Positions 6,286 through 24,896 of a stretch of 64,000 nucleotides of DNA are shown here, in pieces. The first letter of the stretch is position 1; each line of letters opens with the position of its first letter. A program made the translations under genes and the position numbers. This DNA is from Aurantimonas endophytica (lineage in GTDB: Bacteria; Pseudomonadota; Alphaproteobacteria; Rhizobiales; Rhizobiaceae): contig NZ_JACIEM010000001.1 in NCBI RefSeq assembly GCF_014196845.1, positions 1,178,001 to 1,242,000 of the forward strand. The letters are read 5' to 3'. Below the pieces are notes generated by a model. It did not search any database and was not told where the DNA came from. It saw only the letters and a list, made by a program, of their open reading frames with translations.

Positions 6286-8253
6286 TCACGTCCAGTGCGC
6301 CACCGTTCGCTTCTCGAAGCTCTCGCGGAACTGCTCGGTGGTCTTCGGCAGCACTTCGCCCGTCTCCCAGTCGAGGATCGTGGCATAGCGGCGGATGGCG
6401 TCCAGAGCGTCGATCTCGCCCGTCTTGTATTTGCGCGCCACTTCCTCCGGATCGCTGCGAGCCCATTCCGTTCGCGCAGCCCGAATTTCCGCTCGCTTCG
6501 CCTGTGTCGCCGCCTCATCGACCTCGAACGCGCAGAGGTCCCGGTCGATCTCGCGAATGACGACCCCGTAATCCTTCGCCGCACGGTCGATCGAGACATA
6601 GTCGTCGATCACGTCCTCCATGACCCGTTTCGGGTCTCGCTCCAGAGGATCGCCGAAGCCGCCGCCGCCCGCTGTCGGTCGTGCGAACTCGTCGCCGGTG
6701 AAGACCGGATGGTCGGAGAACACCGAGCCAAGCCAGGTCGGCTCCTTCGACCCGGCGCGGGTCAGCGTCAGGCCGTGCGGCATCGACGGCAGGCCGCCCT
6801 CGACGCCCCAGACCACGGCCCGCTCGCGGTCGCAGATATAGGACATGACCGCACCCTCGGCTTCCAGAAGGAGTGACGTCTTCTGGACCCCGACGCCGCC
6901 ACGCCATTTGCCGGGCCCGGCCGAATCCTGCTTGATCTGGAACTCGGTGGTGCGGGTCGGGTTGACCCGCTCGTTGCCCTCGTTGGGCTGGGACATCAGG
7001 CCGGTGCCGAAGCAGGCGGTGGTGACATCGGCGCCGTCCTTGCCGTTGCGCCCGCCCCAGCCGCCCGGCAGCCACTCGTAGAACATGAAGATCGGCTTTT
7101 CCGGCTTGCGGGCGTCGCGTCCGCCGGCCAGCAGATATTCGAGGTTGAAGGCGCAGGCGATGGCACGTTCCGGCATGATCTTCGACCACATCTCGAAGAT
7201 CGCGTTCATGATCTTCTCGAACGGCATCAGGAAGCCGGTGACGGCCACCGGCCATTCGGCGCTGACGATGCTGTCCTTGGGCGCCGTCACCTTGATCATC
7301 CGGTAGAAGCCGCTGTTCAGCGGCAGGTCGGGGAAGAACGTCTTGGTACCTGCGACGACCGCCGAGAAGGTGGCGCCGTGGGCCGAATTGTACATCGAAC
7401 CGATCGTCGGATGGCTGCCGGTGAAATCGTAGGTGATCTCGTCGCCCTTGATCGTCATCTTGATGCGGATCGGGATCATGCCCTCGCCGCCGGCCGGGTC
7501 GCGGTCGATATAGTCCACCGTCTCCCAGGTGCCGTCGGGCAGGTCGGCGATGCGCTTGCGCACCGCGCGCTCGACATAGTCCTGCACTTCCTCCATGCCG
7601 CGCGTGACCTGGTCGCGACCGTATTTGCGCACGAGCCTCAGGATCTCGCGCTCGGCCACCTGTGTCGCCTGCGCCTGGCTGTGGATGTCGCCGATGATCG
7701 AGGCCGGGTCGCGTGTCTGCGCGGCAATCAGGTTGGCGACGTCGGAGCAGAAGCGACCCTTGTGGAAGAGCCGCACCGGCGTGATGCGCATGCCTTCGCG
7801 GAACATGTCGCGCGCCGTCACGTCGAAGGAACCGGGCACCGAGCCGCCGAGATCCGACCAGTGACCGTTCGACTGCGAGAAGCCGATCAGCGTGTCCTCG
7901 TCGAAGATCGGCCGGACGAGGCGCACGCCGGAGAAGTGCGTGCCGCCGGCATAAGGGTCGTTGATGGCGTAGACGTCGCCCGGCGCCATGTCGCCCTCGA
8001 AGTGGCGGATGACCTCCTTGCAGGTGTTGTGGAGCGTGCCGACGTGGACGGCGATGTCGTAGTTGCCCTGCGCGACCGAGTTGCCTTCGGCGTCGTGCAG
8101 CGCGTTGGAGAAGTCGCGGTTGTAGATGACGAAGGAATAGCAGGTGCGCAGCATCTGCTCGGCCATCTGGTCGACGGTGGTGATGAAGGAGTTCTTCAGC
8201 ACCTCGAAGGTCACGGGATCGAGCCTGTTCTCCGGCTTCGTGTCCATGTCCAT
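6286..8253 (-). CDS. hyuB: hydantoinase B/oxoprolinase family protein (HyuB)
   Basis: This 655-residue protein is the HyuB-type subunit of ATP-dependent N-methylhydantoinase/oxoprolinase enzymes. It shows DPVTFEVLKNSF near residue 12, the NDPYAGGTH motif around residues 97-105, FSQSNGHWSDLGG, and the C-terminal RPTAGGGGFGDPLERDP. It starts four bases after hyuA stops. HyuA and HyuB together cleave the amide bond of a five-membered lactam or hydantoin (or carboxylate a related ring) at the cost of ATP. Distinguishing hydantoinase, oxoprolinase and acetone/acetophenone-carboxylase-like roles is not possible from sequence alone, although the operon favours ring opening. Confidence 0.93.
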   Translation of the reverse strand: MDMDTKPENRLDPVTFEVLKNSFITTVDQMAEQMLRTCYSFVIYNRDFSNALHDAEGNSVAQGNYDIAVHVGTLHNTCKEVIRHFEGDMAPGDVYAINDPYAGGTHFSGVRLVRPIFDEDTLIGFSQSNGHWSDLGGSVPGSFDVTARDMFREGMRITPVRLFHKGRFCSDVANLIAAQTRDPASIIGDIHSQAQATQVAEREILRLVRKYGRDQVTRGMEEVQDYVERAVRKRIADLPDGTWETVDYIDRDPAGGEGMIPIRIKMTIKGDEITYDFTGSHPTIGSMYNSAHGATFSAVVAGTKTFFPDLPLNSGFYRMIKVTAPKDSIVSAEWPVAVTGFLMPFEKIMNAIFEMWSKIMPERAIACAFNLEYLLAGGRDARKPEKPIFMFYEWLPGGWGGRNGKDGADVTTACFGTGLMSQPNEGNERVNPTRTTEFQIKQDSAGPGKWRGGVGVQKTSLLLEAEGAVMSYICDRERAVVWGVEGGLPSMPHGLTLTRAGSKEPTWLGSVFSDHPVFTGDEFARPTAGGGGFGDPLERDPKRVMEDVIDDYVSIDRAAKDYGVVIREIDRDLCAFEVDEAATQAKRAEIRAARTEWARSDPEEVARKYKTGEIDALDAIRRYATILDWETGEVLPKTTEQFRESFEKRTVAHWT

Positions 8254-8257
8254 GGGC

Positions 8258-10288
8258 TCAGCCTTTCGTCATGGTAATGAGGATGTTCATGAAGGCGTCG
8301 ACCGATGCGGTCGTCCCGGGCGGCACCACGGTGGTGGAATCGAACTGCTCGACGATGGCCGGGCCATCGAAGGCAGCGCCCGCTTTCAGGTCGTCGCGCT
8401 GATAAAGCGCCGCATCGTGCGCCATGCCATCGAACCAGACCTCGCGGCGACCGACAGGCTCCGCCACGTGCGCCCTCACCTCGTGCTTCGGCAGATCGGC
8501 CTTGGGCACGATGCCGACGGCCTTGACCGCGACGCGGAAGATGGTCACCGGCGCATCCTCGCGGCGGAAGTTGAACTCGCGCTCGTGCTCGGAATGGAAA
8601 GCGTCGACCAACGCCGAAACACTCTCGATCCTGGCCGGCGCAGAAACCGATAGGGCGCGCCACTGGCCCTGGTACATCATCTCGACGCTGCGCTGCAGCG
8701 CCATGTCGGCCGGCTCGACACCCTCGTGCGTCAGGCGTTCGATGGCCTGCGCCTCCATGCGGCCGAACGCGGACTCCATGTCGGCCGGCGCGACGCTCGA
8801 CGCATCCGCCATGAAGCTGTCGGAGAAGTCGTGCTGGACATCGACCAGCAGGCACCCGAGCGCCGAGGTCACGCCGGGGTTCGGCGGCACGATCACGGTC
8901 GGGATCGCCAGTTCCTTCGCCACCGCCGCACCGTGCAGCGCGCCGGCGCCGCCGAAGGCGACCAGTGCGAAGTCGCGGGGATCGTAGCCGCGGCTGATCG
9001 AGAGGAGACGCACGGCGTTGGCCATGTTGGCATTGGCCACCGCGATGATGGCTTCGGCTGCCTCGTGCAGTTCCATCTGGAACGGGTCGGCAACGGTCTC
9101 CTGCACGGCTTGCTTCGCCAGCGAAGGATCCAGTGTGATCTTGCCGCCGGCAAGGCTCGTGCCGAGGCGCCCCAGCACGACATTTGCGTCGGTGTTGGTC
9201 GCGGTCCCGTTGCCGTTCTTGTAGCAGGCCGGCCCCGGATGCGCGCCGGCCGACTGCGGGCCGTTGCGCAAGCTGCCGCCCTCGTCCTGCCAGGCGAGCG
9301 AGCCGCCGCCGGCGCCGATCGTCAGCACCTCGATCGACGGGAAGCGGATCGGGTAGCCATATTCGATGTACCAGTCCTTGGTGATGCGCGGCTCGCCTGC
9401 CCAGGCGAGCGAAACGTCGGTCGAGGTGCCACCCATGTCGAAGCCGATGGAATTGGGAAAGCCGCACAAATTGCCGATGAAGCGGCTCGCGATCGCGCCC
9501 GCCGCGATCCCCGAACCGGCAAGGCGGGCCGAGAAATCCCTGACGCTGGCGGGCGTCATCACGCCGCCGCCCGAGTGCAGCAGCAGGAGGTCACGCCCGT
9601 AACCGGCCTCCGCCAGTTTTTCCCCCAGCCGGGAAACGTAGTCGACCACGACCGGCGCGCAGACCGCGTTGGCCATCGTCGTCGAAAACCGCTCGTGCTC
9701 GAAGATTTCCGGCATCACTTCGGACGACACAGATACCGGCACGTCGGGCATGACCTCCGCCAGGATCTCGCGCATGCGCCGCTCGTTGGCGCCGTTGACG
9801 TAGGAGTTCATGAAGCAGACGGCGATCGACTTCACCTCGCGCTTCTTCAGGACTTCGGCGACGCGCCGTGCGTCCTCCTCGTCGAGCGCCTCGAGTATCG
9901 CGCCGTTGGCGTCCACGCGCTCGCGCACCGTCAGTCGATCGCGGCGCGGAATGTAGGGCTTGGCGACATCCTTGTAGGTGTCCCAGAGGTCCTCCTTGTT
10001 GGCGCGGCGGATCTCCACCACGTCGCGGAACCCCTCGGTGCAGACCATGGCTGCGCGCGGCAGGCGCCGCGTGATCAGCGCGTTGGTGGCAACCGTCGTG
10101 CCGTGGGAGAACATCGTGACCTCGGCGAGATCGATCCTGCCCTGCTCGACGCCGTTCATGATCGCCTGCATGGGATCTTGCGGCGTCGACGCGGTCTTCT
10201 CGATCCGGATCGCGCCTGTCTCTTCGTCCATGATGCAGATGTCGGTGAAGGTGCCCCCGACATCCACGGCCACTCTGGTCTTCGTCAT
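8258..10288 (-). CDS. hyuA: hydantoinase/oxoprolinase family ATP-binding subunit (HyuA)
   Basis: The 676-residue protein has the ASKHA-type nucleotide-binding core: VAVDVGGTFTDICIMD at the N-terminus, SHGTTVATNAL near residue 62, GFDMGGTSTDVS in the second half-site and GAGGGSLAW. The C-terminal hydantoinase A domain includes GGAGALHG. It is the ATP-hydrolysing partner of the hyuB product directly downstream. It is the first gene of the catabolic operon after luxR, with a 410-bp gap that probably holds the operon promoter. Confidence 0.94.
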   Translation of the reverse strand: MTKTRVAVDVGGTFTDICIMDEETGAIRIEKTASTPQDPMQAIMNGVEQGRIDLAEVTMFSHGTTVATNALITRRLPRAAMVCTEGFRDVVEIRRANKEDLWDTYKDVAKPYIPRRDRLTVRERVDANGAILEALDEEDARRVAEVLKKREVKSIAVCFMNSYVNGANERRMREILAEVMPDVPVSVSSEVMPEIFEHERFSTTMANAVCAPVVVDYVSRLGEKLAEAGYGRDLLLLHSGGGVMTPASVRDFSARLAGSGIAAGAIASRFIGNLCGFPNSIGFDMGGTSTDVSLAWAGEPRITKDWYIEYGYPIRFPSIEVLTIGAGGGSLAWQDEGGSLRNGPQSAGAHPGPACYKNGNGTATNTDANVVLGRLGTSLAGGKITLDPSLAKQAVQETVADPFQMELHEAAEAIIAVANANMANAVRLLSISRGYDPRDFALVAFGGAGALHGAAVAKELAIPTVIVPPNPGVTSALGCLLVDVQHDFSDSFMADASSVAPADMESAFGRMEAQAIERLTHEGVEPADMALQRSVEMMYQGQWRALSVSAPARIESVSALVDAFHSEHEREFNFRREDAPVTIFRVAVKAVGIVPKADLPKHEVRAHVAEPVGRREVWFDGMAHDAALYQRDDLKAGAAFDGPAIVEQFDSTTVVPPGTTASVDAFMNILITMTKG

Positions 10289-10698
10289 GCTCTTCCTCGC
10301 AAGGCTGTTTCAGTAGACAACAGTCCGCTCCTGCCGCGACGGGAGCCGCGGCGTCTCGTATCGGCTGTTCGCAGGCATCCCGGGGCAGGCGCGGCTCTGG
10401 CGACTTGCCCGCATACACGAAGGCGTCGCCCGTGCCGTTCCGCAAACGGCCGAAGCCCGGACGACCACGCTGGCAAGCCTGCAACTTTCTGCGATGGCGT
10501 CGCTACCGCCAGGTTCATCGTGCGCTGCGACACCACGACTGAAAGCCGCCAGCACGGGGTCGGATCGGCGATCAGTACCGCCGCCATCTCGTTGCGCCGC
10601 CCCTCCTCGAGGAAGGCGGAATGCGGCATCACGGTGCAGCGGCATCCCTCACGGCTGAGGCCTTGTCCATCACGGAGTCCGTGCATTCGAGCTCCGCG
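10289..10698. other. 410-bp intergenic gap between luxR and hyuA
   Basis: I find no gene with recognisable protein features here on either strand. It lies upstream of hyuA and downstream of luxR, both on the minus strand, so it is the likely site of the catabolic operon's promoter. I saw no copy of the palindrome found upstream of the hydrolase gene and no clear terminator hairpin. Confidence 0.5.
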
Positions 10699-11469
10699 TC
10701 ACGAAGTGCCAATCAGTCGGTAATGTGCGGCCCGGGCGATGAGCTGCGCTCGATTGGTCGCCGAAAGCTTTCGGGCTGCCGCATTCAGATGCATCACCAC
10801 CGTCGGCACCGCGCGTTCGAGACGCTTCGATATCTCCTTCGCGGACAGGCCCTGGGCCGCATAGGCGACGCATTCGCGCTCGCGCGGCGTGAGGCTGATG
10901 GGTCGAGCCCGCAGCGCCTCCTCGTCGAACAGGGGATAGATCTTTTCGTGCAGCACATGGGCAAATAGCGCGAAGGTCGCGACATTGCCGCCGATGGTCG
11001 CCTCGAAGTCGTCGTCGGCATCCTGCCGGACCCCCGTCACGACGGCGCACTCGCCGTCCGGCATGTGGACCGGGACCGTGACACCGCAAGTGATCCGCAT
11101 GTCGTGGACATAGTCCACCACCGGTTTGTGCGCCGGCGCGAGGATCCGGTTCAGCGGCGTCTTGCCGTCGCTGCGATAGGACCAGGCGAACGGCAGATGC
11201 GACCGGAACGCAAGCTGCTGCACCGGGTCGATCTGGTAGAAACCATCCTCGCACCAGACCTTGGCCATATCTGCCGGCAGATTGCGCATCGAGAGGAAGG
11301 AGGGCGTCACCACCGCGCCATCATGCGAGAACTTCACCGGGGTGAAGTCGTAGATCAGCGAGGTGAGCTCGAAACGGGGGAGCGCGTCCTGGGCGAGGAG
11401 CATCCGCTCGTCCAGGCTACGGCCTAACGAGAAATAAGCATCCATTTCCGAAATATCATTCAATTTCAA
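10699..11469 (-). CDS. LuxR-family solo of the plant-responsive (PAB/PipR-like) type
   Basis: The 256-residue protein has an N-terminal autoinducer-binding domain (about 20-165) and a C-terminal GerE helix-turn-helix (about 190-245, LTPRERECVAYAAQGLSAK). Aligned on the invariant Asp-Pro (81-82, TraR 70-71), Trp96 matches TraR W85. The positions of TraR W57 and Y61 are Met68 and Trp72. Those two substitutions mark the PAB LuxR solos (OryR, XccR, PsoR, PipR), which answer plant-derived compounds rather than acyl-homoserine lactones. No luxI is in the window. It is divergent from a pip-like gene, as in that subfamily. The start codon appears to be TTG without a strong ribosome-binding site; the ATG at 11445 is an alternative. 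Confidence 0.92.
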   Translation of the reverse strand: MKLNDISEMDAYFSLGRSLDERMLLAQDALPRFELTSLIYDFTPVKFSHDGAVVTPSFLSMRNLPADMAKVWCEDGFYQIDPVQQLAFRSHLPFAWSYRSDGKTPLNRILAPAHKPVVDYVHDMRITCGVTVPVHMPDGECAVVTGVRQDADDDFEATIGGNVATFALFAHVLHEKIYPLFDEEALRARPISLTPRERECVAYAAQGLSAKEISKRLERAVPTVVMHLNAAARKLSATNRAQLIARAAHYRLIGTS

Positions 11470-11475
11470 TGATAT
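11453..11475. repeat. perfect 8-bp inverted repeat over the luxR start
   Basis: The arms ATATCATT and AATGATAT are separated by 7 nt and span the proposed TTG initiation codon of luxR. It could be an operator for autoregulation, or a hairpin in the luxR mRNA that limits translation. Nothing else in the window repeats it. Confidence 0.45.
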
Positions 11476-11543
11476 CGCCCGCTTTGGCTAATTCTGCGTC
11501 ATGTTTACATTCTAAGCGGTGCGGCGCAAGAATTGCGTGAGCG

Positions 11544-11563
11544 ACCTATCATTTCTGATAGCT
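11544..11563. promoter_or_regulatory. lux-box-like palindrome upstream of the pip-dpp operon
   Basis: The 20-bp element ACCTATCATTTCTGATAGCT contains a perfect CTATCA-N4-TGATAG dyad. Its length and position, centred about 86 bp before the hydrolase ATG, suit a LuxR-type activator site next to the -35 region. PAB LuxR solos bind such elements before pip genes; binding here is inferred. Confidence 0.7.
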
Positions 11564-11639
11564 GGCGGCTGCCGCGGCGCAGCCGTTACGATCCCTGGGT
11601 TCGCTGTTGAATGACAGCGATTGCAGGGGAGATGGCAGC

Positions 11640-12530
11640 ATGTGGCGCGAGATCGAGCCGGACGAACGGCAGGAAGTCGAGGTCGAGGGCTACAAGGTCG
11701 TCACCTACAGCTACGGTTCCGGCGACGACGTGGTGTTCTGCCTGAATGGCGGCCCGGGCCTGCCCTGCGACTATCTGCGCGATTCCCACTCCTGCCTGAT
11801 CGACCACGGCTACCGCGTGGTGGCCTTCGACCAGTTGGGCACCGGCGCGTCGGACCGGCCGACAGACCCGGCGCTATGGACCATAACCCGCTATGTCGAG
11901 GAGGTGGAGACCGTGCGCCAGGCCCTCGGCCTGGGCAAGGTCCATCTCGTCGGCCAGTCCTGGGGCGGCTGGCTGTCGATCGAATACGCCCTCACCTATC
12001 CCGACGCGCTGCGCACGCTGACGCTCGAGAACACGGCAGCCGACATTCCGCATCTGGTGCGCGAACTGGAACGGTTGCGTGAGGCGCTCGGCGCAGAGAC
12101 CGTGGCGATGATGCAGCGGCACGAGGCCGAAGGCACGCTCGACCATCCGGAATACCAGGCCGCGATCACCGTCCTGAACTATCGCCATGTGTGCCGGCTG
12201 TCCGAGTGGCCCGCGCCGGTGCAGCGTTCGCTCGGCGACTGGAACATGGGGCCCTACGAGACGATCCAGGGGCCGAACGAGTTTCTCTACACCGGCAATC
12301 TGAAGGACTGGAACCGCATTCCCGACATGCACCGGATCACCGTCCCGGTGCTGATCACCGTCGGCCAGCATGACGAGCTGACACCGGCCTGTGCCGCAAA
12401 GATGAAGCACGCTCTGCCCGATGCCGAGCTCAAGGTCTTCCCCAATTCCAGCCACATGCCCTTCTTCGAGGAGCCGGAAGCCTTCTATCCGGTCCTCGTC
12501 GATTTCCTGAAGCGTCGCGGCGGCGGATGA
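11640..12530 (+). CDS. pip: proline iminopeptidase-like alpha/beta hydrolase (PipA-like)
   Basis: This 296-residue S33-family alpha/beta hydrolase has the oxyanion-hole motif NGGPG (36-40), the nucleophile elbow GQSWGG with Ser107, an acid in GQHDELTP and a C-terminal His in NSSHMPFF. The ATG was chosen because AGGGGAG lies 8 nt upstream; an in-frame TTG 33 nt earlier has no ribosome-binding site. It is the first gene of an operon with a complete peptide importer and is divergent from a PAB-type luxR. In the Pseudomonas PipR system the equivalent gene, pipA, is activated by the regulator and trims the signal or related peptides. The natural substrate here is unknown. Confidence 0.9.
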   Translation: MWREIEPDERQEVEVEGYKVVTYSYGSGDDVVFCLNGGPGLPCDYLRDSHSCLIDHGYRVVAFDQLGTGASDRPTDPALWTITRYVEEVETVRQALGLGKVHLVGQSWGGWLSIEYALTYPDALRTLTLENTAADIPHLVRELERLREALGAETVAMMQRHEAEGTLDHPEYQAAITVLNYRHVCRLSEWPAPVQRSLGDWNMGPYETIQGPNEFLYTGNLKDWNRIPDMHRITVPVLITVGQHDELTPACAAKMKHALPDAELKVFPNSSHMPFFEEPEAFYPVLVDFLKRRGGG

Positions 12531-12579
12531 GCGCAGCAGTGGCGGCCATGCATTCCACAGACGCGGAAGGCTGACGGCG

Positions 12580-13518
12580 ATGCACCGCTATCGCTTCGTT
12601 CTGTACAGGCCCCTCCAGCTCCTGCCGGTGCTCTTGGGCATCAGCATCATCACCTTCGTCCTGGTTCGCTCGATTCCGGGCGACCCGGCGCGGATCCTGC
12701 TCGGCACCCGCGCCACGCCGTCGGCTCTCGCCCGTATCCGCGACCAGTACGGGCTCGATGACCCGCTCTGGATCCAGTATTTCTACTTCCTGAAAAATCT
12801 CGCCGACGGCGAGATGGGCCGCTCGATCCTCTACAAGGTCGACGTCCTCGGCCTGATCCTCGGTCGCCTCGAGCCGACCCTCGTTCTCGTCTCCGGCAGC
12901 GTCCTTCTCTCTCTGGCCTTCGCCATCCCGCTGGCGACGTTCGCGGCCCGCAATCGCGGCGGGATCGTCGACCAGGGCGTGCGGCTCTTGTCCACTGCAG
13001 GGCTCGGCATGCCTGCCTTCTGGCTGGGCCTCATGCTGATCATCGTGTTCAGCGTGCAACTCGACCTCTTCCCCGTCTCCGGCTACGGCACCACGCCGCT
13101 CGACAAGCTGCACCACATGGTGCTGCCCTGCCTGACCATCGCGCTGTCGCTGTCGGCTGTGCTGACGCGCAGCCTGCGCGCCAGCCTCATCGCGGAGATG
13201 CAGTCGGATGCTTCCACCGCTGCGCGGGCGCGCGGCCTGCCGGAAAGCCTTGTCTTCCGGCGCCATGTCCTGCCGAACTCGCTGATCCCGACGCTGAACC
13301 TTCTGGCCGTCAATATCGGCTGGCTGATCGGCGGGACGGTCGTCGTGGAAAGCGTCTTCGCCATTCCCGGCATGGGGCAGCTGCTCATCCGGGCAATCTT
13401 CACCCGCGACTACATGGTGGTCCAGGGCGTGGCCATGGTGTTCGCCCTCGCCTCCGTTCTCGTCAATTTCCTCGCCGACGTCCTGACCGTCACGCTCGAT
13501 CCGCGCGTGCGGCTGTGA
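12580..13518 (+). CDS. ABC peptide transporter permease, DppB-type
   Basis: This 312-residue integral membrane protein is a DppB/OppB permease with about six transmembrane segments. The first is at residues 12-32, followed by the family motif RSIPGDPARILLG. The cytoplasmic EAA-loop lies in TAARARGLPESLVFRRHVLPN-like sequence near residue 210. It is the second gene of the pip operon, 49 nt after the hydrolase, and its stop overlaps the GTG start of the partner permease. It forms the translocation channel with that partner. Confidence 0.94.
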   Translation: MHRYRFVLYRPLQLLPVLLGISIITFVLVRSIPGDPARILLGTRATPSALARIRDQYGLDDPLWIQYFYFLKNLADGEMGRSILYKVDVLGLILGRLEPTLVLVSGSVLLSLAFAIPLATFAARNRGGIVDQGVRLLSTAGLGMPAFWLGLMLIIVFSVQLDLFPVSGYGTTPLDKLHHMVLPCLTIALSLSAVLTRSLRASLIAEMQSDASTAARARGLPESLVFRRHVLPNSLIPTLNLLAVNIGWLIGGTVVVESVFAIPGMGQLLIRAIFTRDYMVVQGVAMVFALASVLVNFLADVLTVTLDPRVRL

Positions 13519-14375
13519 GCGAGATCGCGCTCCCTCCCCCGATGCAGGCTACAGGCCGCCGGCGTTTAACCCGCCGCGTTCCCCAGCCGCTGCTCGTCGG
13601 CGGAGGGCTGCTCGCCTTCTTCGTGGTGCTCGCCGTCGGGGCGCCGGTGATCGCACCTTATGACCCGATCTACCAGGACATCTCCGCCCGGCTGGCGGGG
13701 CCCAGCCTGGCGCACCCGTTCGGCACCGACAATTTCGGTCGCGATATCCTGTCACGCGTCATCTGGGGCACGCGGATCGACCTGCAGATCGCCGTCATCG
13801 GCGTGGTGTTCCCATTCATCATCGGCACGATCGCGGGAACCCTCGCGGGCTATTTCGGCGGCGTGACCGACACGCTGTTCATGCGCCTCGTCGACATCAT
13901 CCTCGCCTTTCCGTTTCTCGTCCTGATGCTGGCGATCATCGCCATCCTCGGGCCGGGCCTCGCCAGCTTCTACATCGCCATGGCGCTGGTCGGCTGGGTC
14001 TCCTACGCGCGACTGGTCCGCGCCCAGATCCTGGTGCTGCGGCAGAGCGACTTCGCCCTTGCCGCGAGGAGCCTCGGCTTTTCCCACGGGCGGATCATGT
14101 TCCGGCATCTCCTGCCGAACGCGATGATCGGCTCGATCGTCTTCGCCATGTCGGACGCGGTCCTCGTCCTCCTGAACGGCGCCGCCATCAGCTATCTCGG
14201 CCTCGGCGTCCAGCCGCCGACGGCCGAGTGGGGCATCATGGTCGCCGAAGGCCAGGCTTTCATCTCGACCGCCTGGTGGATCGCCACGTTCCCGGGCCTT
14301 GCCATCGTGCTTCTCGCCTTCGGGTTCAGCCTGCTCGCCGACGGCCTCGGCGAGAAGCTCGGGGTGCACCGATGA
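13515..14375 (+). CDS. ABC peptide transporter permease, DppC-type
   Basis: The 286-residue DppC/OppC permease begins at a GTG overlapping the previous stop (GTGA). It has the N-terminal OppC-N segment with APYDP, the GTDNFGRDILSR motif near residue 77, about six membrane spans, and the EAA-loop around AARSLGFSHGRIMFRHLLPN. It pairs with the preceding permease. The following ATPase gene starts within its stop codon. Confidence 0.94.
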   Translation: MSEIALPPPMQATGRRRLTRRVPQPLLVGGGLLAFFVVLAVGAPVIAPYDPIYQDISARLAGPSLAHPFGTDNFGRDILSRVIWGTRIDLQIAVIGVVFPFIIGTIAGTLAGYFGGVTDTLFMRLVDIILAFPFLVLMLAIIAILGPGLASFYIAMALVGWVSYARLVRAQILVLRQSDFALAARSLGFSHGRIMFRHLLPNAMIGSIVFAMSDAVLVLLNGAAISYLGLGVQPPTAEWGIMVAEGQAFISTAWWIATFPGLAIVLLAFGFSLLADGLGEKLGVHR

Positions 14376-15373
14376 ACGCGCCCCTCTTCACGGTGCAGGG
14401 GCTGAACGTCGAGGCCGCGACGGAGACGGGGCGCCATCGCATCGTCGACGGCGTCTCTTTCGAGTTGCGGCAAGGCGAGATCCTCGGTCTCGTCGGCGAA
14501 AGCGGCTCGGGCAAGACCATGGCCTGCCGGGCGCTTCTGCGACTCCTGCCGAGCCGCGACCTGTCGATCTGCGGCGGCAGTGTCCGGTTCGACGGGCAGG
14601 AACTCACGGACCTCTCCGATCAGGCATTCGCCGCCATTCGCGGCAAGCGGATCGCGATGATCTTCCAGAACCCCGCAAGTCACCTCGACCCGGTGATGAG
14701 GATCGGCGACCAGATTGCCGAGACGGTCCGGTTTCATGAGGGCGGCAGCCGGCGAAACGCTCATGCGAAAGCCGTGGCGCTCCTGAGCCAGGTCGGCATT
14801 CCCGATCCTTCCGAGCGCGCACATGCCTATCCCCACGAATTCTCAGGCGGCATGCGCCAGCGGGCGATGATCGCCCTGGCGCTCGCCTCCGACCCGGACG
14901 TGCTGATCGCCGACGAGCCGACCACGGCACTCGACGTTACCGTCCAGGCGCAAATCCTGCGGCTCCTGAAAGACCTGCGCGACCGCAGCGGTCTCTCGAT
15001 CATCTTCATCACGCATGATCTCGGCGTCGTCGCGCAGCTATGCGACACGATCTGCGTGCTCTATGGCGGCCGCGTCTGCGAGCTGGGGCCGAAGCGCGAG
15101 ATCCTTGCCCTTCCGCGGCACCCGTACACGGCCGGGCTGCTGGGCTGCCAGCCGGCGCTCGGCACCGGCCGGGGCCGGCTGCAGACGATCGCCGGCCAGC
15201 CGCCGACCGTCGACCAAATGCCGGCCGGCTGCCGCTTCCACCCGCGTTGCGCGAACGAGACCGCGATCTGTTCGCGGATCCAGCCGCCGCTGGAAGCCTT
15301 CGCGTCAGCCCATGTCGCGGCCTGCTACAATCCGGTCGGCAGCAGCCTGCCTCGTGTCAGGGAGAGTGCCTGA
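14372..15373 (+). CDS. ABC peptide transporter ATP-binding protein, DppD-type
   Basis: The 333-residue ATPase has Walker A GESGSGKT, an LSGG-equivalent reading FSGGMRQR, Walker [13 protein letters not shown] and an H-loop ITHDLG. The C-terminal oligopeptide-transporter extension has cysteines in [11 protein letters not shown]. That extension is typical of DppD/OppD and can carry a [4Fe-4S] cluster in some members. The ATG overlaps the upstream stop (ATGA). It powers import together with the DppF-type subunit. Confidence 0.95.
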
Positions 15374-16401
15374 TGCGGGCGGCGCCACTCGTCGAGACCG
15401 ATGATGTCGTGCTGCACTTCCCCGTCTCGGGCGGCGGCCCGCTCGGCCTGTCCCGCCGCACGGTGAAGGCGCTGAACGGGGTCTCGTTGACGGTGCGTCC
15501 CGGCGAGACGATCGGCATCGTCGGTGAATCCGGGTCGGGCAAGTCGACCCTTGGCCGGGCCCTCCTCGGCCTTGAGGAGGTGACGAGCGGCCATGTGACG
15601 TTCGACGGCATCGACGTCACGTCGGGCAGGCGTCAGGACCTCGTCAGGCTACGACACGAGACGGCGATGGTGTTCCAGGATCCGATGAACGCCCTCAACC
15701 CGCGGCTTCGCGTCGGCGAGGCCATCGCGGAAGTGCTGCGGGTCCACAAGAAGGTGCCGACGAAGCGCATCGGCCAGCGCGTCGCCGAGCTCCTGGGCCT
15801 CGTCGGACTCGATCCGGCGCTGGCCTCGCGCCGGCCGCAGGCGTTGAGCGGTGGCCAGTGCCAGCGCGTCGGCATCGCACGGGCGCTGGCGGTCGAGCCG
15901 AAGCTGATCGTCGCCGACGAATGCGTCGCCGCGCTCGACGTCTCGATCCAGGGCCAGATCATCAACCTGTTCATCGACCTTAAGGAACGGATGGACCTCA
16001 CCCTGGTCTTCATCGCCCACGATCTGTCGATCGTGCGCCGGCTCTGCGACCGGGTGGCCGTGATGTATCTCGGCAGGATCGTCGAGGAAGGTCCGACGGA
16101 GGCGGTCTTCGCCGCGCCGCGCCACCCCTATACCGCCGCGCTGATCGCCTCGATCCCGGAGATCGACCCGGACATCCCGCTGCCCGCCGCGCCGATGCAG
16201 GGCGAGCCGCCGAGCCCGCTCGACCTGCCGGCCGGCTGCCCCTTCCATCCGCGCTGCCCCTATGCCGAACCGCAGTGCCGGACCGACCCGCCGCCGACGC
16301 TGCGGCGCCGTGACAACCACGGCTGGGCCTGCATCCTCGACCCGAGCCATCTGCCCCCACCCGCTACCCGCCTTCCAAACGCGACAGGAGAGCATCCATG
16401 A
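15373..16401 (+). CDS. ABC peptide transporter ATP-binding protein, DppF-type
   Basis: The 342-residue second ATPase has Walker A GESGSGKSTL, signature LSGGQCQRVGIARAL, Walker B IVADECVAALDVS and an H-loop IAHDLS. Walker B has Cys where Pro is usual (DEC rather than DEP), a mild oddity that leaves the catalytic Glu intact. A GCPFHPRCPYAEPQC C-terminal extension is present. The start overlaps the previous stop as TGATG, and its stop overlaps the binding-protein start. Confidence 0.95.
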   Translation: MRAAPLVETDDVVLHFPVSGGGPLGLSRRTVKALNGVSLTVRPGETIGIVGESGSGKSTLGRALLGLEEVTSGHVTFDGIDVTSGRRQDLVRLRHETAMVFQDPMNALNPRLRVGEAIAEVLRVHKKVPTKRIGQRVAELLGLVGLDPALASRRPQALSGGQCQRVGIARALAVEPKLIVADECVAALDVSIQGQIINLFIDLKERMDLTLVFIAHDLSIVRRLCDRVAVMYLGRIVEEGPTEAVFAAPRHPYTAALIASIPEIDPDIPLPAAPMQGEPPSPLDLPAGCPFHPRCPYAEPQCRTDPPPTLRRRDNHGWACILDPSHLPPPATRLPNATGEHP

Positions 16402-17915
16402 GCAGAAAGACGACATTGCAGCTTGCCACCGCCACGGCGCTGGCCGCGCTGACGCTCGGCACCAGCATTGCCGAAGCCGCCGGCATCCTCAGCATCGGCC
16501 GGCGCGAGGATTCGACCACCTTCGACCCGATCGCCACGGCGCAGAACATCGATTTCTGGGTGTTCATGAACGTCTTCGACGTTCTGGTCCGGGTCGACAA
16601 GACCGGCACCAAGCTCGAACCGGGCCTGGCGGAAAACTGGACCATATCCGACGACGGCCTCACCTACACGATGAGCCTTCGCGACGCGAAATTCTCGGAC
16701 GGTTCGCCGATCACGGCCGAGGACGTCATCTATTCGCTGACGCGGCTGCGCGACGATGAATTGTCGCTTTGGAGCGATGGCTACAAGATCATCGAGTCGA
16801 TGGACGGTCCGGACGACCGGACGGTCGTCATCACCCTGTCGTCGCCCTCGGCGCCTTTCCTGTCGACGCTGGCGATGCCCGGTGCCTCGATCATTTCCAA
16901 GGCCGGCATGGAGGAGATGGGCGAAGAGGCCTATGCGGCCGATCCGGTCGCCTCCGGCGCCTTCACCGTCGCCGACTGGATCCGCGGCGACCGCGTGATC
17001 CTGGAGAAGAACCCGAATTTCTGGCAGGCCGACCGGGTCCGGCTGGACGGCGTCGAGTGGATTTCGATCCCGGATGACAATACCCGCATGCTGAACGTCC
17101 AGGCGGGGCAGATCGACGCCGCGATCTTCGTGCCGTTCTCGCGCGTCGAGCAGCTCCAGCAGGATCCGGAGCTGACCGTCCATCTTGAGCCCTCGACCCG
17201 CGAGGACGCTCTCCTGATCAACCACGCAAACGAACCGCTTGGAAACAAGGAGGTGCGCCAGGCGCTCGATTTCGCGATCAACAAGCAGGAGGTCATCGAC
17301 GCCGTCACATTCGGGATCGGCGAGGTCGCCAATTCCTACGTCCCGAAGGGGGCGCTGTACTACTATCCCGACAATCTGCTCCGGCCGCACGATCCCGAGA
17401 AGGCCAAGGCGCTTCTGGAGGAGGCCGGCGTCAGCGACCTGTCGCTCGACTATCTGGTGAAGGCCGGCGACGAGGTGGACGAGCAGATTGCCGTCCTGCT
17501 GCAGCGCCAGCTCTCCGAAGCCGGCGTCGAGGTCAACATCCAGAAGGTCGACGCCAGCCAGCAATGGGACATGCTCGTCGACGGCCAGTTCGACCTCGCC
17601 GTGGGCTACTGGACCAACGACATCCTTGATCCCGACCAGAAGACCACCTTCGTGCTCGGGAACGATACGAACATGAACTACATGACCCGCTACGACGCCC
17701 CCGAGGTCGCGCAGATGGTCGCCGATGCCCGGATCGAGATGGACGTCGGCAAGCGCGAAGAGATGTATGTCGAGCTGCAGAAGCAGGCCAAGGAGGACGT
17801 GAACTGGATCGACCTCTACTACAGCCCCTTCATCAACGTCTCTCGCAAGAACATCGAGAATTTCTACCAGAACCCGCTCGGCCGCTTCTTCCTGGAAGAC
17901 ACCGTCAAGAACTGA
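16398..17915 (+). CDS. periplasmic peptide-binding protein, family 5 (DppA-like)
   Basis: This 505-residue solute-binding protein has a Sec signal peptide ending near TSIAEA-AG (about residue 27). The family 5 core follows: STTFDPIATAQN near 40, EPGLAENWTISDDGLTYT, and the FSDGSPITAEDV motif. It captures the peptide-like ligand in the periplasm and delivers it to the Dpp-type permeases. It is unusually the last gene of its operon, and a strong terminator hairpin follows. In the PipR system the cognate binding protein is needed for uptake of the plant-derived signal, so this protein is the best candidate receptor for the ligand of the nearby LuxR. Confidence 0.93.
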   Translation: MSRKTTLQLATATALAALTLGTSIAEAAGILSIGRREDSTTFDPIATAQNIDFWVFMNVFDVLVRVDKTGTKLEPGLAENWTISDDGLTYTMSLRDAKFSDGSPITAEDVIYSLTRLRDDELSLWSDGYKIIESMDGPDDRTVVITLSSPSAPFLSTLAMPGASIISKAGMEEMGEEAYAADPVASGAFTVADWIRGDRVILEKNPNFWQADRVRLDGVEWISIPDDNTRMLNVQAGQIDAAIFVPFSRVEQLQQDPELTVHLEPSTREDALLINHANEPLGNKEVRQALDFAINKQEVIDAVTFGIGEVANSYVPKGALYYYPDNLLRPHDPEKAKALLEEAGVSDLSLDYLVKAGDEVDEQIAVLLQRQLSEAGVEVNIQKVDASQQWDMLVDGQFDLAVGYWTNDILDPDQKTTFVLGNDTNMNYMTRYDAPEVAQMVADARIEMDVGKREEMYVELQKQAKEDVNWIDLYYSPFINVSRKNIENFYQNPLGRFFLEDTVKN

Positions 17916-17997: not shown

Positions 17998-18341
17998 CGA
18001 TTCCCCGCATCGCGCCTGCCAGGCCGCCTGGAGCCAGCCACCGACCGGCGTACGTGGCTGCCCCGTCTCATGACGGCCTCGGCCCGACTGCAGAGAGCGA
18101 ATCTCTCCCGCCGCATGAACGGAGCGTGTCCGCTTCCTGCAAGGTGCCCGATCGGACCGCATCGGCCGTCCAGTACCAAACCTGCCGCCGGGCTGAATGC
18201 AGCGCCGGCATGCGCGAGCGTTCGATCGACGCCCGGTTCCGACGCGCGATCAACGGCCGCCGGTGCCCCGGCGACCACTAACGTCCATGCTATCGACGCG
18301 ATGGTCGGCGCGTTTCCCGGTGACGCCCGGCGACCGGTCGC
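17998..18341. other. intergenic stretch, no gene recognised
   Basis: This lies between two converging operons. The frames that stay open here have no recognisable domain, no ribosome-binding site and no neighbour overlap. I see nothing functional beyond the hairpin just to the left. Confidence 0.5.
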
Positions 18342-19145
18342 TCAGGCCTCTGCCCTGCGCCGGATTGCCCTCAGCACGACGCCGGCGAGGAGGAGCAAGG
18401 CGGCGGCGGTCAGTGTGCTCATGGTTCCAAGCGCCGGGACCATCGGCGTGTAGCCGGCGACCATCTTCGCGTAGAGCCATTTCGGCACCGTGGAATCGGC
18501 TCCCGCCGTGTAGAGCGACAGCGGGAAGTTGCCCCACGACAGCAGGAAGGCGAAGATCGCCCCGGACCAGATGCCGGGCCACAGGATCGGCAGCGTGACT
18601 TCGCGCAGGATGAACAGCCGGCTGGCGCCGAGATCGGCCGCCGCCTCCTCGACGCTCTTGTCGAAGCTGTAGACCTTGATCGCGATCACCAGCGTGACGA
18701 CCGGGATGATCCAGATGAGGTGGGCCACCGCCGCCGTGTGCCAGCTCGGCTGGATGCCGAGGGCGTTGAACCACAGGAGCAGCGCCAGGCCGAGGACGGG
18801 CTGCGGGAAGAAGATCGGCAGGAGGACGAGCTTCTGATAGAGCCGCCGGCCTTTCCAGTCGTAGCGGGCAAAAGCCAGTGCGCCGAAGAAGGCGACGACG
18901 ACCGAGACGACCGTCACGATGGCGGCGATCGCGAGCGAGGTCTTGACCAGCGTCGCGATCTCGATCGACGCGACGGTCCGCGACCACCATTCCAGCGAGA
19001 AGGCCCGGACCGGGAACATGAAGTAGCGGCCCTTCGACAGGCCCGCGAGCGCACCGCACAGGATCGGCAGGTAGACCACGACGAGGACGAGCCCGGTCCA
19101 GGTCCAGATGAAGGCATCGATACGGCGTTCGGAACGCTGGCTCAC
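18342..19145 (-). CDS. ABC transporter permease, PotC-type (polyamine-like)
   Basis: The 267-residue permease has about six transmembrane segments and the EAA-loop in EEAAADLGASRLFILREVTLP. The start is a GTG five bases past the stop of the PotB-type gene. A longer open frame exists upstream but is antisense noise. It is the last gene of the potD-A-B-C-like minus-strand operon. It belongs to the spermidine/putrescine/2-aminoethylphosphonate permease group; the actual ligand cannot be read from it. Confidence 0.92.
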   Translation of the reverse strand: MSQRSERRIDAFIWTWTGLVLVVVYLPILCGALAGLSKGRYFMFPVRAFSLEWWSRTVASIEIATLVKTSLAIAAIVTVVSVVVAFFGALAFARYDWKGRRLYQKLVLLPIFFPQPVLGLALLLWFNALGIQPSWHTAAVAHLIWIIPVVTLVIAIKVYSFDKSVEEAAADLGASRLFILREVTLPILWPGIWSGAIFAFLLSWGNFPLSLYTAGADSTVPKWLYAKMVAGYTPMVPALGTMSTLTAAALLLLAGVVLRAIRRRAEA

Positions 19146-19150
19146 CGGTC

Positions 19151-20131
19151 TCACTTTCGCCCGAGGATGCGATCGAGGTCGAGCCGGGCCATCACGACGA
19201 GCGACAGTCCGCTCACGACGACCATCAGCAGCACCGCGAGGGCCGAGCCGAGCGGCCAGTTCTGGGCATAGGTGAAGGCGGTCTCGATGTCGTGGGTCAC
19301 GGTGATGATCGCCTGTCCGCCGAGGATCTTCGATTCGGCCAGCGCGCCGGCGCCGAGCACGAAGCTCAGCAGCATGCCGATCAGGATGCCGGGCATCGCC
19401 AGCGGCAGCTCGATCTCGCGCCAGATCATCCATCGGCCGGCGCCGAGATCGCGCGCCGCGTCGACGAGGTCGCGGGGCACCATCGACAGGCCCAGCACCA
19501 GCGGAAACAGCATGAACGGCAGGTAGACATAGGCCATGCCGAAGAGGATGACGCCGGGCGTGTAGAGAACCTCGGGCCCGCCGGAGAAGCCGAGGGCCTT
19601 CAGCCCGCCGTCGAGAACGCCGTTGCGAATGAAGAACAGCACCCAGCCATAGAGCCGGACGTTCTCGGAGACGAAGAGCGGGAAGACGAAGAGGATGCTG
19701 ATGAAGCCGGACCAGCGGCCGAAGACGCGCACGAGGCCGACCGCGATCGGATAGGCGACGATCGCCAGAACCACAACGGTCAGCACCGCAAGCAGGATCG
19801 ACCATGCGAACGAGGTCCAGACAGTGTTGCCCGGCGCGACGATCGCGGCGTAATTGTCGAGGGTAAAGGAGCTGAAGACGTCGTAGCTGCGCGGCGTCGC
19901 GAAGGAATAGGCAAGGACCGTCAGCAGCGGCGCGACGAAGCCGAAGAGCAGCACCAGCAGCAGCGGTACAGAGGCCCGCAGGCCGGCGGATAGAGGCAGC
20001 CAGCCCGCGAGGGAGAGTTCGGCGCGGGGCGTCGGGACGGTTGAAATGGAGGGCCCCGCTGCCGCGCTTGCCTGCGCTGTCCGCTCTGTCCGTCCTGCGC
20101 CCGATGCGGCTCCCAGCCCGATCCCGCTCAA
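19151..20131 (-). CDS. ABC transporter permease, PotB-type (polyamine-like)
   Basis: About 326 residues; the membrane core starts near residue 45 (LRASVPLLLVLLFGF) and includes NVRLYGWV and the EAA-loop around VDAARDLGAGRWMIWREIELPLAMPG. No ATG or GTG fits between the upstream stop and the first membrane span. I chose a TTG one base after the ATPase gene's stop, which leaves a low-complexity Ala/Thr/Ser N-terminal tail of about 40 residues. The start is the uncertain part; the identity is not. It pairs with the PotC-type permease. Confidence 0.9.
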   Translation of the reverse strand: MSGIGLGAASGAGRTERTAQASAAAGPSISTVPTPRAELSLAGWLPLSAGLRASVPLLLVLLFGFVAPLLTVLAYSFATPRSYDVFSSFTLDNYAAIVAPGNTVWTSFAWSILLAVLTVVVLAIVAYPIAVGLVRVFGRWSGFISILFVFPLFVSENVRLYGWVLFFIRNGVLDGGLKALGFSGGPEVLYTPGVILFGMAYVYLPFMLFPLVLGLSMVPRDLVDAARDLGAGRWMIWREIELPLAMPGILIGMLLSFVLGAGALAESKILGGQAIITVTHDIETAFTYAQNWPLGSALAVLLMVVVSGLSLVVMARLDLDRILGRK

Positions 20132-20132
20132 C

Positions 20133-21320
20133 TCAGACCTCGACCACGATGGCGTCCCGGGCGTCCCAGCCCACCAAGACTGGCTGGTCGACAACGGCGG
20201 TTCGTCCGAGGCCGCGCGAAACTTCCGCCAGCATGACGCTGCTACCGACGCGGATCTGGTACTGCACCCGGGAGCCCAGCGAATACTCGTTGTAGAGAAC
20301 GCCCGAGAGGCAGTTGTCGGCCTCCCCCGGCCCTTGCACGAAGCGCAGGAACTCCGGCCGCACGACGACCGCGACCTCGGTGGCATCGGCCAAACGCTCC
20401 GGCAGGGCGAGCTTCAGCGGCGCCGTGCATTCCGGCGCCGTCCAGCCGCCACCCGTCGCCGATCGCCGCGCCGTCAGCACGTTGACCTCGCCGACGAACT
20501 CCGAGACGAAACGGTTGGCGGGGCGCGTGTAGATTTCCTCCGGCGTTCCGACCTGAACGAGGCGGCCGGCGCGCATGACGCCGATGCGGTCCGACATCAC
20601 CAGCGCCTCCTCCAGGCTGTGGGTGATGTAGACGAAGGTCTTGCCACTTTCCTTGTGAAGGTCCTTCAGCTCCTTCTCGAGCGCCTTCTTCAGCTTGTAG
20701 TCCAGCGCCGAGAGCGGCTCGTCGAAGAAGAGGATATCCGGGTCGTAGGCAAAGGCTCGGGCGAGCGCGACGCGCTGCTTCTCGCCGCCCGAACACTGCA
20801 TCACGTTCCGGCCGTAATGTCCCTCTGGCAGGCGGACCATCTTCATGAGCTCCAGCGCCCGCCGCCGGCGCTCGGCCGGCGCCATGCCGCGGACCTTGAG
20901 GGCGAATTCGATGTTGCGCCCGACAGTCATGTGCGGGAAGAGCGCCAGAGACTGGAAGACGAGGCAGGTCGGCCGCTTGTTCGGCGGCGTGTCGTTGATC
21001 TTGTGGCCGCGCAGCGTGATGTTGCCCTCGCTCGGGCTTTCCATCCCGGCCAGCATGCGCAGCAGTGTCGTCTTGCCCGAACCGGAGGGTCCGACGATGG
21101 TCAGGAACTCGCCTTCGCGGATGTCGAGGTCGATCCGCTCGACGGCGGCGAAATCCTTGAACATCTTGCGCACGCCGACCAGCTGCAGCACCGGCAAGCC
21201 CGAGGAACCGCTCCCCGCCTCGGCGGTCTCAGCCGGTGTCCCGGCGGCGGGCTTCATGTCGACAGGAACCATGTTCATCGCGACATCCAGGGAGCGATCC
21301 CGTTGTTCGGACCGGACCAT
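20133..21320 (-). CDS. ABC transporter ATP-binding protein, PotA-type
   Basis: The 395-residue ATPase has Walker [15 protein letters not shown]-loop VFQSLALFPH, Walker B ILFFDEPLSALD, H-loop ITHSLEEAL and a C-terminal TOBE-type domain. The signature reads CSGGEKQRV instead of the usual LSGGQ; Ser-Gly-Gly is kept, so activity is likely. An N-terminal tail of about 40 residues precedes the ABC core, and internal Met codons in it could be the true start. It energises the polyamine-type importer. Confidence 0.93.
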   Translation of the reverse strand: MVRSEQRDRSLDVAMNMVPVDMKPAAGTPAETAEAGSGSSGLPVLQLVGVRKMFKDFAAVERIDLDIREGEFLTIVGPSGSGKTTLLRMLAGMESPSEGNITLRGHKINDTPPNKRPTCLVFQSLALFPHMTVGRNIEFALKVRGMAPAERRRRALELMKMVRLPEGHYGRNVMQCSGGEKQRVALARAFAYDPDILFFDEPLSALDYKLKKALEKELKDLHKESGKTFVYITHSLEEALVMSDRIGVMRAGRLVQVGTPEEIYTRPANRFVSEFVGEVNVLTARRSATGGGWTAPECTAPLKLALPERLADATEVAVVVRPEFLRFVQGPGEADNCLSGVLYNEYSLGSRVQYQIRVGSSVMLAEVSRGLGRTAVVDQPVLVGWDARDAIVVEV

Positions 21321-21378
21321 GGGTCCGGACGGAGGGTCCGCCCCGTCCGGCTCCGGGAGCCGGCCAGAGCGGACGTGT

Positions 21379-22521
21379 CTATTTCGACCGCTTGGCGGCG
21401 GTCATGATGTCGAGGGCCGCGGCGTAATCCGGGACGATGTCGTATTCGACGGAGCGGCTCATGTCCTCCTCCAGCGTGTCGTACTGGATGGCGGCGAGCT
21501 GGTCCGGGGTGAACAGCTCGAAGCACTTCGGATTGCCCATCTGGCTCACCGGATTGAACGTGCCTTCCGCAAAGGCGACCGTGTGGGCCATCTCGGGCGT
21601 CTGGACGTATTTCAGGAATTCCGTCGCGAGCGGGGAAAGGTTCGGGTTGTTCACCGTCGAGGTGACCTCGATCCACGAGATGCCGCCCTTGCCGTCCATC
21701 GGGCCCGACAGCGGGCTGATCGCCTCCAGCTCGAGATAGCCGTCGGCGCGCGCCGGGGAGACCGAATAGGTGCCGCCGGTCATCTGCAGGTCGATCTCGC
21801 CGGACACGAGGGCCTGGTTCATCGTGGCGATGTCGCCGACCATCTTGGCACCGCCGAACACGCGCTGGGCGGTCTCGGCGAATTTCTGCATCTCCGCTTC
21901 GTCATGGACCTTGAAGGGATCGATGCCGGCGATCAGGAAGAGGTTGAAGACGTTCCAGTCGTCCGATTCCTGGATGCCGTAGCGCCCTGCGAGGGCCGGA
22001 TCATTGAAGATCTCCCAGCCCTGCTCCTCGGCCGTCGCCTTGGAGATCTTGTCGGTGTTGACGACGAAGCTGTAGGGCCCGAAGCGCTGGACGATGCCGA
22101 GAAGTTCGGCGCCGTCCTCGCTCATCGCCCAGCGATACGGGGCCTTGAACTGCGGCAGCATCGCGTCGAAGAGGGGCTCGAACTCGTCCCGGGGCAGCGG
22201 CTTGATCAGCCCCTCCGGATACATCACCTTGCGGGCCCAGGGATTGTTGACGTTGATGAGATCCCAGACCGACGTCTCCCCCGCCCGCAGGCGATTGATC
22301 ATCGTCGGGTCGTTGGTCAGGCTTTCGGCCCGGACGGTCGCGCCCTGCGACGTGCGGAACGGGTCGAGGACCTGCGCCGAGTTGTAGCCTTCCCAGCAGA
22401 GGATGTTCAGTTCGGTTTCGCGCGCCGCGTGCGCGGTCCGTGTCATCGCGGCGGGAAGGCCGAACGCCATCGCGCCGGTGCCCATGAGCTGCAATACGTC
22501 TCGTCTCGACATCGTGGCCAT
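21379..22521 (-). CDS. polyamine-type extracellular solute-binding protein (PotD-like)
   Basis: This 380-residue binding protein starts at an ATG preceded by GAGGGAG. Its signal sequence has a twin-arginine motif, SRRDVLQL, followed by a hydrophobic run ending TAHA, so Tat export is likely. The mature part begins with a LNILCWEGYNSAQVLDPF strand typical of spermidine/putrescine binding proteins. It is the first gene of its operon. A perfect dyad operator candidate lies in the promoter region it shares with the divergent SDR gene. Confidence 0.93.
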   Translation of the reverse strand: MATMSRRDVLQLMGTGAMAFGLPAAMTRTAHAARETELNILCWEGYNSAQVLDPFRTSQGATVRAESLTNDPTMINRLRAGETSVWDLINVNNPWARKVMYPEGLIKPLPRDEFEPLFDAMLPQFKAPYRWAMSEDGAELLGIVQRFGPYSFVVNTDKISKATAEEQGWEIFNDPALAGRYGIQESDDWNVFNLFLIAGIDPFKVHDEAEMQKFAETAQRVFGGAKMVGDIATMNQALVSGEIDLQMTGGTYSVSPARADGYLELEAISPLSGPMDGKGGISWIEVTSTVNNPNLSPLATEFLKYVQTPEMAHTVAFAEGTFNPVSQMGNPKCFELFTPDQLAAIQYDTLEEDMSRSVEYDIVPDYAAALDIMTAAKRSK

Positions 22522-23523: not shown

Positions 23524-23541
23524 GACAGGAGGGGCCGACGC

Positions 23542-24885: not shown

Positions 24886-24896
24886 CTTGAATGCCT

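Follow-up and report, generated by a model that had tools for sequence, protein, structure and literature searches.

A probable PipR-subfamily signal-import locus without pipA in Aurantimonas endophytica

The question raised by this locus is whether a luxR-type gene and the peptidase-importer operon divergent from it make up a complete module of the PipR/PipA/Aap kind, a known sort of bacterial receptor system proposed to detect small molecules that plants make. The locus lies in a 64,000-nucleotide stretch of the Aurantimonas endophytica genome (NCBI RefSeq assembly GCF_014196845.1, contig NZ_JACIEM010000001.1, positions 1,178,001 to 1,242,000; hereafter the window, in which all unprefixed positions are given). 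An earlier account made from the letters alone, the sequence-only reading, had described a full module headed by a LuxR solo of the PAB type. The locus is considered here, with a probability of about 0.75, to be a PipR-subfamily (PAB) signal-import module in the Rhizobiales, closest to loci of the Aurantimonadaceae, in which only the importer arm remains. Its features are as follows.

10699..11469, minus strand: PAB/PipR-type LuxR solo, 256 aa, TTG start, start codon uncertain
11544..11563, plus strand: predicted LuxR operator, 20-bp lux-box-type palindrome ACCTATCATTTCTGATAGCT, centred at -86.5 from the pip ATG
11640..12530, plus strand: pip, predicted AapA-type proline-iminopeptidase-family hydrolase (alpha/beta hydrolase, GQSWGG; TIGR01250)
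12580..13518, plus strand: importer permease B (BPD_transp_1; synteny)
13515..14375, plus strand: importer permease C, GTG start, 4-bp overlap (BPD_transp_1; junctions)
14372..15373, plus strand: importer ATPase D (ABC_tran and oligo_HPY)
15373..16401, plus strand: importer ATPase F (ABC_tran and oligo_HPY)
16398..17915, plus strand: predicted AapF-type solute-binding protein, family 5 (best PDB match 7kz8/7kz9, AapF)

The regulator, its relatives and its importer

The LuxR protein matched Pfam Autoind_bind (PF03472, 83.2 bits) and GerE (PF00196, 47.6 bits). A gapless alignment to the TraR structure 2q0o, running from Met68 through Asp81-Pro82, placed Met68 at W57 and Trp72 at Y61, and Asp81-Pro82 (TraR 70-71), Trp96 (W85) and Gly129 (G113) were retained. 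The residues named in the sequence-only reading were thereby confirmed, and the TraR pattern does not return at either position, Met standing at 57 and Trp, not Tyr, at 61. We take W57 and Y61 to be the TraR numbering of these residues. The numbering agrees with PMC10134790. The PAB pocket pattern, including Q73, V101 and L/M105, was taken from section 7 of PMC7301841, as were all pocket positions compared below; in the window Q84 (TraR 73) and V117 (TraR 101) are retained and TraR 105 is V instead of L/M.

The host genome (5.04 Mb, 9 contigs, 97.85% complete) was searched for a cognate luxI or acyl-homoserine lactone (AHL) synthase and none was found, since its single Autoind_synth match (27.9 bits; third contig, L003 1120-1989) is a protein of the FeeM family of N-acyl amino acid synthases, as which it scored 136.2 bits; the L003 protein was rejected as an AHL synthase on that comparison. 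The second LuxR-type protein of the genome sits on another contig.

LuxR relatives were gathered in overlapping draws with differing E-value limits, which covered 385 class-level, 397 order-level, 394 family-level and 8 genus-level genomes. A plasmid search matched 486 records, of which 40 were listed and 5 opened, and a scan of named genomes kept 80 of 208. Reading then covered 40 stretches, each 20 kb long at most; some loci span just 1.5 kb per side, and L070 only 366 bases downstream. The 183 loci with a scorable LuxR were reduced to 140 by collapsing 43 with identical core sequence; the sample is Rhizobium-heavy, and the figures below are sequence counts, not frequencies or events. Four arrangements were distinguished: a divergent aapA with a downstream pipA (group A, canonical, 110/140 loci), aapA without pipA (group B, 11/140, window included), luxR-pipA-importer without aapA (group C, 5/140) and a divergent pipA with an unrelated Opp-type importer (group D, 4/140). 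Ten loci were classed as other; one of them, L066 (genome G1060), was counted as a twelfth B member. L204, L205, L009, L010, L011, L012, L209, L210 and L211 stand outside the A to D counts. In L204, which has Met/Trp, luxR is preceded on its own strand by a PipA-type gene and followed by an unrelated ABC importer; L205 carries Leu/Trp and pipA behind luxR, with no importer seen; the loci of this class besides L066, L204 and L205 are distant.

At TraR positions 57 and 61, Met occurred in 109 and Trp in all of the 110 sequence-distinct loci having both peptidases, so the association of this signature with peptidase neighbours is not a matter of chance. Met57 is not strict: two group B members carry F, and the Pseudomonas locus L157 carries W. 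In a midpoint-rooted LuxR tree of 61 of the 140 sequences (OryR, NesR and PipR sequences not among them), the 12 members from the window, Jiella, Aurantimonas and others, spanning 7 genera, were monophyletic (100/100), as were groups C (100/100) and D (99/98); group A surrounds B, and the window LuxR is nested among canonical-arrangement loci including L157. An 87-row tree with distant rows also grouped the 12 (100/95) and placed L204 and L205 beside them on long branches (91/91); the long rows L204, L205 and L209-L211 were removed after it.

L157, a P. fluorescens P5A locus met in the scan of named genomes, was chosen for its AapF and serves as the PipR reference because this AapF is near-identical to the 7kz8/7kz9 entry (1035 bits) and because the layout is aapA-importer, luxR, pipA. 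Against the PDB, the window binding protein scored 702 bits to AapF (7kz8/7kz9) and 174 bits to its second-best match; on sequence it is an AapF ortholog, and 149 of 505 alignment columns were invariant across 107 sequences. With 275.6 bits the pip product exceeded the 167.65 cut-off of TIGR01250, a proline iminopeptidase-family model, and it was 87-92% identical to its clade homologs (11 rows, one gene appearing twice as L070 and L175), 71-81% to the 110 canonical aapA genes, 74.5% to that of L157 and 37% to a PipA-type protein; by these comparisons it is of AapA type, not PipA. Some loci (L168, L170 and L172; also L107/L187 and L127) have a tandem second AapA-like gene ahead of the permeases, 57-59% identical to its query.

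luxR and pip diverge across 170 bp. A gap of 49 bp separates pip from permease B, and the remaining four of the five junctions overlap (B/C 4, C/D 4, D/F 1 and F/binding protein 4 bp), much as had been described before with the divergent hydrolase and full importer, whose families the TIGR01250 and Pfam matches support. The terminal position of the binding-protein gene had been thought noteworthy; it is the usual order in the canonical loci examined. Taken together, the signature, the tree, the importer orthology, the operator described below and the lack of a true luxI argue for PAB/PipR membership, and the earlier identification of a PAB LuxR solo with a peptidase and an Aap-type importer stands.

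The predicted operator and the absent pipA arm

A palindrome, RCCTATCANNNNTGATAGCT, was common to the luxR-pip intergenic stretches of 28 loci, a set that includes one genome twice (L107, L187). The consensus was drawn from the same stretches that were scored, with 100 shuffles per stretch as control; 27 of the 28 scored 14-21 of 21, and the best of the 100 shuffles of each scored 13-15. Sites were then called by a matrix at a threshold of at least 15 bits, which none of 512 random segments reached; the downstream sites, those before pipA, were not used for building it. Group A had the site upstream in 109/110 and downstream in 107/110 loci (L157 missing on both sides, L083 and L199 downstream), and group B upstream in 11/11, with L066 in addition, and downstream in 0/11. 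Group D had it upstream in 0/4 and downstream in 4/4, ahead of the other importer. Counts for group C were 0/5 upstream and 2/5 downstream, and all five loci have one common degenerate site form (12.7-17.4 bits) ahead of pipA-importer. The class of other loci had 1/10 upstream (L066) and 0/10 downstream; L204 has a 12.5-bit site ahead of its importer and L205 no site. In four loci of the window's own family (L194 10249-10271, L196 9840-9862, L197 9648-9670 and L213 9835-9857) the operator stands before the unrelated Opp-type importer behind luxR and is absent from the neighbouring pipA; it seems that one importer was replaced by another with the regulator kept.

In the host genome the pattern matched three times at up to two mismatches: at 11545-11563 (0), on its reverse strand (2) and once elsewhere (2), so that the palindrome at 11544-11563 is the only site with 0-1 mismatch. 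Such a site was found at the locus in 11 of the 12 B genomes, the twelfth (G822) having one with 2 mismatches; G897 has one extra 1-mismatch site elsewhere. The canonical genomes G661, G765, G1067, G713 and G603 have two 0-1 mismatch sites each, flanking luxR.

Site centres of -91.5 for aapA and -71.5 for pipA are given for Pseudomonas sp. GM79 in PMC4981722, a 20-bp inverted repeat before pip is on record for the PAB group in PMC7683790, and PMC4338825 mentions a supplementary table of palindromes. Given these reports, the novelty of the operator may be limited to the exact alphaproteobacterial consensus and its use for comparing arrangements; a literature search with five exact operator strings returned no relevant paper, and a variant spelling could be in print.

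The window also holds a 23-bp near-perfect palindrome at 11453-11475, ATATCATTCAATTTCAATGATAT, overlapping the luxR start codon. It did not appear in the repeat lists of the other 27 loci (up to five per locus) and was left unused.

The position downstream of luxR that pipA takes in canonical loci is occupied in the window by hyuA. A PipA-type gene was found neither at the locus nor elsewhere in the host genome, and the claim of a full module therefore fails; what stands of the PipR/PipA/Aap comparison is the importer with its AapF ortholog and a pip, the adjacent pip being AapA-type. The window contains no second operator downstream of luxR, and a pipA remnant in 10289-10698 was rejected, there being no match at E<=10. 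Searched with a PipA-type protein, each of the 12 B genomes gave as its top match a gene 37-39% identical, AapA-type in every case and lying beside luxR (on another contig in G1060); no other match at E<=1e-20 was found in them, besides second, weaker ones in G962, G897 and G818. The LuxR tree suggests that the pipA arm was probably lost once in the clade. Judged strictly as a PipR/PipA/Aap system by its sequence, the locus has the AapF-type binding protein and the five-gene importer and is without the pipA downstream of luxR.

With the Pseudomonas sp. GM79 system, represented by L157, the window shares a luxR divergent from an AapA-type peptidase and a five-gene AapF importer, the site centre before the peptidase being -86.5 in the window against -91.5 in GM79. 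It differs in having no pipA, in an operator of alphaproteobacterial type not found in L157, in M for W at TraR 57 and in TraR positions 49, 53, 58, 105 and 110; the L157 locus (9776-10714) keeps Trp at TraR 57. NesR-type Rhizobiaceae loci (L034-L038 and others) agree with the window in importer-side gene order, operator consensus and the Met/Trp signature, with LuxR 47-49% identical for L034-L038; NesR itself is known here from PMC10134790, not from sequence. Unlike the window, these loci have a pipA behind luxR, served by a separate operator (27-29 bits in L034, L036, L037 and L038), and in the annotated L034 and L036-L038 the two ATPases form one open reading frame, whereas the window has two. 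The loci of Jiella sp. LLJ827 and Aurantimonas sp. CSK15Z-1 (L088, L089) share the pipA-less arrangement, the operator and the pocket pattern; each has a tandem second AapA-like gene, in contrast to the single peptidase of the window.

Finding such a module in an alphaproteobacterium had been put forward as new. NesR of Sinorhizobium meliloti is listed with a peptide transporter and pip in PMC10134790, where Rhizobium, Agrobacterium, Shinella, Aureimonas and Rhodobacter appear in the NesR subgroup, an Aureimonas LuxR is placed in the pip subgroup, the flanking arrangements are called very conserved and a regulated adjacent pip gene is called a universal feature of the circuit; the order pip/peptide transporter, luxR, pip with W57M and Y61W is tabulated in PMC4338825. 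The kind of module is thus already known, in alphaproteobacteria as elsewhere, and the pipA-less form is a modest variant of it rather than a new system. The literature searched yielded no clade that combines the absence of pipA with a single operator and a changed pocket, no search having been aimed at pipA loss alone.

The sensing pocket and alternative explanations

The 12 clade members differ from the 110 group A loci at several pocket positions. TraR 49 is G/S/A in 12/12 of the clade (group A: K 96, E 7, S 3, C 2, M 1, T 1), TraR 58 is V/A/I/G/S in 12/12 (group A: H 63, R 30, Y 8, L 5, F, A and N 1 each, 1 unread), TraR 105 is V in 11/12 against L/M in 110/110, and TraR 110 is I in 12/12 against 0/110. 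The pair K49 and H/R58 is also absent from groups C and D. Columns were called clade-specific when shared by at least 90% of B and by less than 5% of A without L157; by this rule LuxR has 11 of 256 and the binding protein 3 of 505. The pocket having changed on the branch of pipA loss, the ligand probably differs from that of canonical systems.

Behind luxR lies a seven-gene operon, on the luxR strand and 410 bp downstream:

210-10288, minus strand: hyuA, hyuB, FAD subunit, 2Fe2S subunit, molybdopterin subunit, LamB/YcsF (PxpA type), class III aminotransferase

These genes suggest a lactam or N-heterocycle pathway; the best match of HyuA was caprolactamase alpha, at 522.8 bits below the cut-off of 1000. 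On the other side of the importer operon, 18250-25098 encodes an ABC importer (TOBE-domain ATPase, binding protein), a short-chain dehydrogenase and another class III aminotransferase; the label polyamine-type for that importer, and the presence of its permeases, were judged from the list of open reading frames only. Behind luxR in the B loci, the shared genes among the matches listed were ABC ATPase-like, confined to the close pair L173/L174 or scattered pairwise.

A regulator of lactam or N-heterocycle catabolism, with LuxR acting mainly on the hyuA-hyuB-molybdenum hydroxylase-pxpA-aminotransferase operon, would fit the strand, the 410-bp distance and the canonical pipA position of these genes. 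No operator was found in 10289-10698, however, and the seven proteins had 0 matches in the 11 other clade loci read (L175 extending just 366 bases behind luxR), so that the catabolic operon, which the sequence-only reading had attached to the module, is probably a bystander and its control by LuxR highly improbable. Neither the window LuxR (at E<=1e-25) nor its HyuA (at E<=1e-100) was found in any of 7 other genomes of the genus, and both are therefore accessory there. This absence of LuxR, the window-to-Aurantimonas identities of 89% for pip, 85% for permease B and 83% for the binding protein against 62% for LuxR, and the importer's not lying beside luxR in G1060 are what a plain peptide-scavenging operon with a degenerate or unused LuxR would predict; yet no clade LuxR has an internal stop codon, and LuxR is kept across 7 genera with the near-exact operators counted above, which leaves scavenging a shade less credible still. 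Least credible is an AHL receptor for neighbours' signals: the LuxR domains and the conserved DP, W85 and G113 are compatible with it, but M57, W61, Q73 and V101 all follow the PAB pattern, no LuxI was found, the sole Autoind_synth match being of the FeeM family, and an importer is linked. A canonical PipR-type sensor of the same ethanolamine-derived compound, HEHEAA, with pipA loss and pocket changes neutral, is unlikely without being far-fetched. The binding protein, an AapF ortholog 62.7% identical to that of L157 and with so few clade-specific columns, speaks for it; against it, PipR is reported to have K, T, W and H at mapped TraR 49, 53, 57 and 58 (PMC7301841) where the window has S, L, M and A, and a close AapF homolog from another species does not bind HEHEAA (PMC10134790). 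Since the clade alters pocket positions proposed to set specificity, a HEHEAA response is not supported.

Several observations weigh against the preferred reading, that of a PipR-subfamily module reduced to its importer arm and with a changed ligand. The counts of L182 and L187 do not exceed their own best shuffle, L107 and the clade members L174 and L175 beat theirs by just one, and L157 is without the motif (12 against a shuffle of 14). Of the 28 upstream sites read, 27 went into the matrix, which makes the upstream scores partly circular. The reversed control pattern at up to two mismatches was in several genomes about as frequent as the operator or commoner (2 vs 3 in the host genome, 7 vs 4 in G661), so that 2-mismatch sites are noise; sites with 0-1 mismatch alone are meaningful, and the control was not split by mismatches. 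L066 of G1060 (luxR with operator at L171 9187-10295) belongs to the B clade by its LuxR, has the operator and has no pipA; its contig ends just behind the operator with only the first codons of aapA, and its AapA (L214 5882-6769, 85% identical to the window's) is on another contig, where the 12 kb read around it contained no importer permease. The G1060 module is for these reasons rearranged or broken. Loss of pipA and alteration of the pocket count as a single evolutionary event, and the link between them is accordingly without statistical support. The imported compound may be the same as in canonical systems, the binding protein being little changed by comparison with LuxR in its clade-specific columns. 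On the evidence of this one branch, the importer may bring in the same class of compound and the receptor may read that compound, or a product of it, differently.

Proposed circuit and implications

In GM79, PipR output, read from the pipA promoter as reporter, was raised in peptidase mutants and abolished in an importer mutant (PMC4981722). By analogy, the AapF-type binding protein and ABC importer would take up a small peptide-like or amide compound; ligand-bound LuxR would bind the single palindrome at 11544-11563 and activate pip-B-C-D-F and the binding-protein gene, and more importer would give positive feedback. The AapA-type peptidase would hydrolyse the signal or its relatives, giving negative feedback. 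The second arm of canonical loci, an operator and pipA downstream of luxR, is gone from the clade, and the receptor pocket was altered on the same branch.

An operator stands ahead of the importer operon in four arrangements: before aapA-importer in canonical loci and in the window clade, before pipA-importer in group C, where it is degenerate, and before the Opp-type importer in group D. L204 with its 12.5 bits, L205 with neither site nor importer seen, and L157 with another motif do not fit this rule. A tentative extension, doubtful as a whole, is that operator control of the importer operon is the core of PipR-type signalling, with peptidases exchangeable, and that the clade's pipA loss accompanied a rebuilt receptor pocket and with it a switch to a new, less polar ligand.

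The clade shows that pipA can be wholly missing where the regulator, its operator and AapA persist, 11 of the 12 loci having kept the linked importer as well. This suggests that the core function is the control of import. The version with one operator and one peptidase is a small system in which the feedback model and the ligand change may be tested, and the operator consensus permits regulon prediction.

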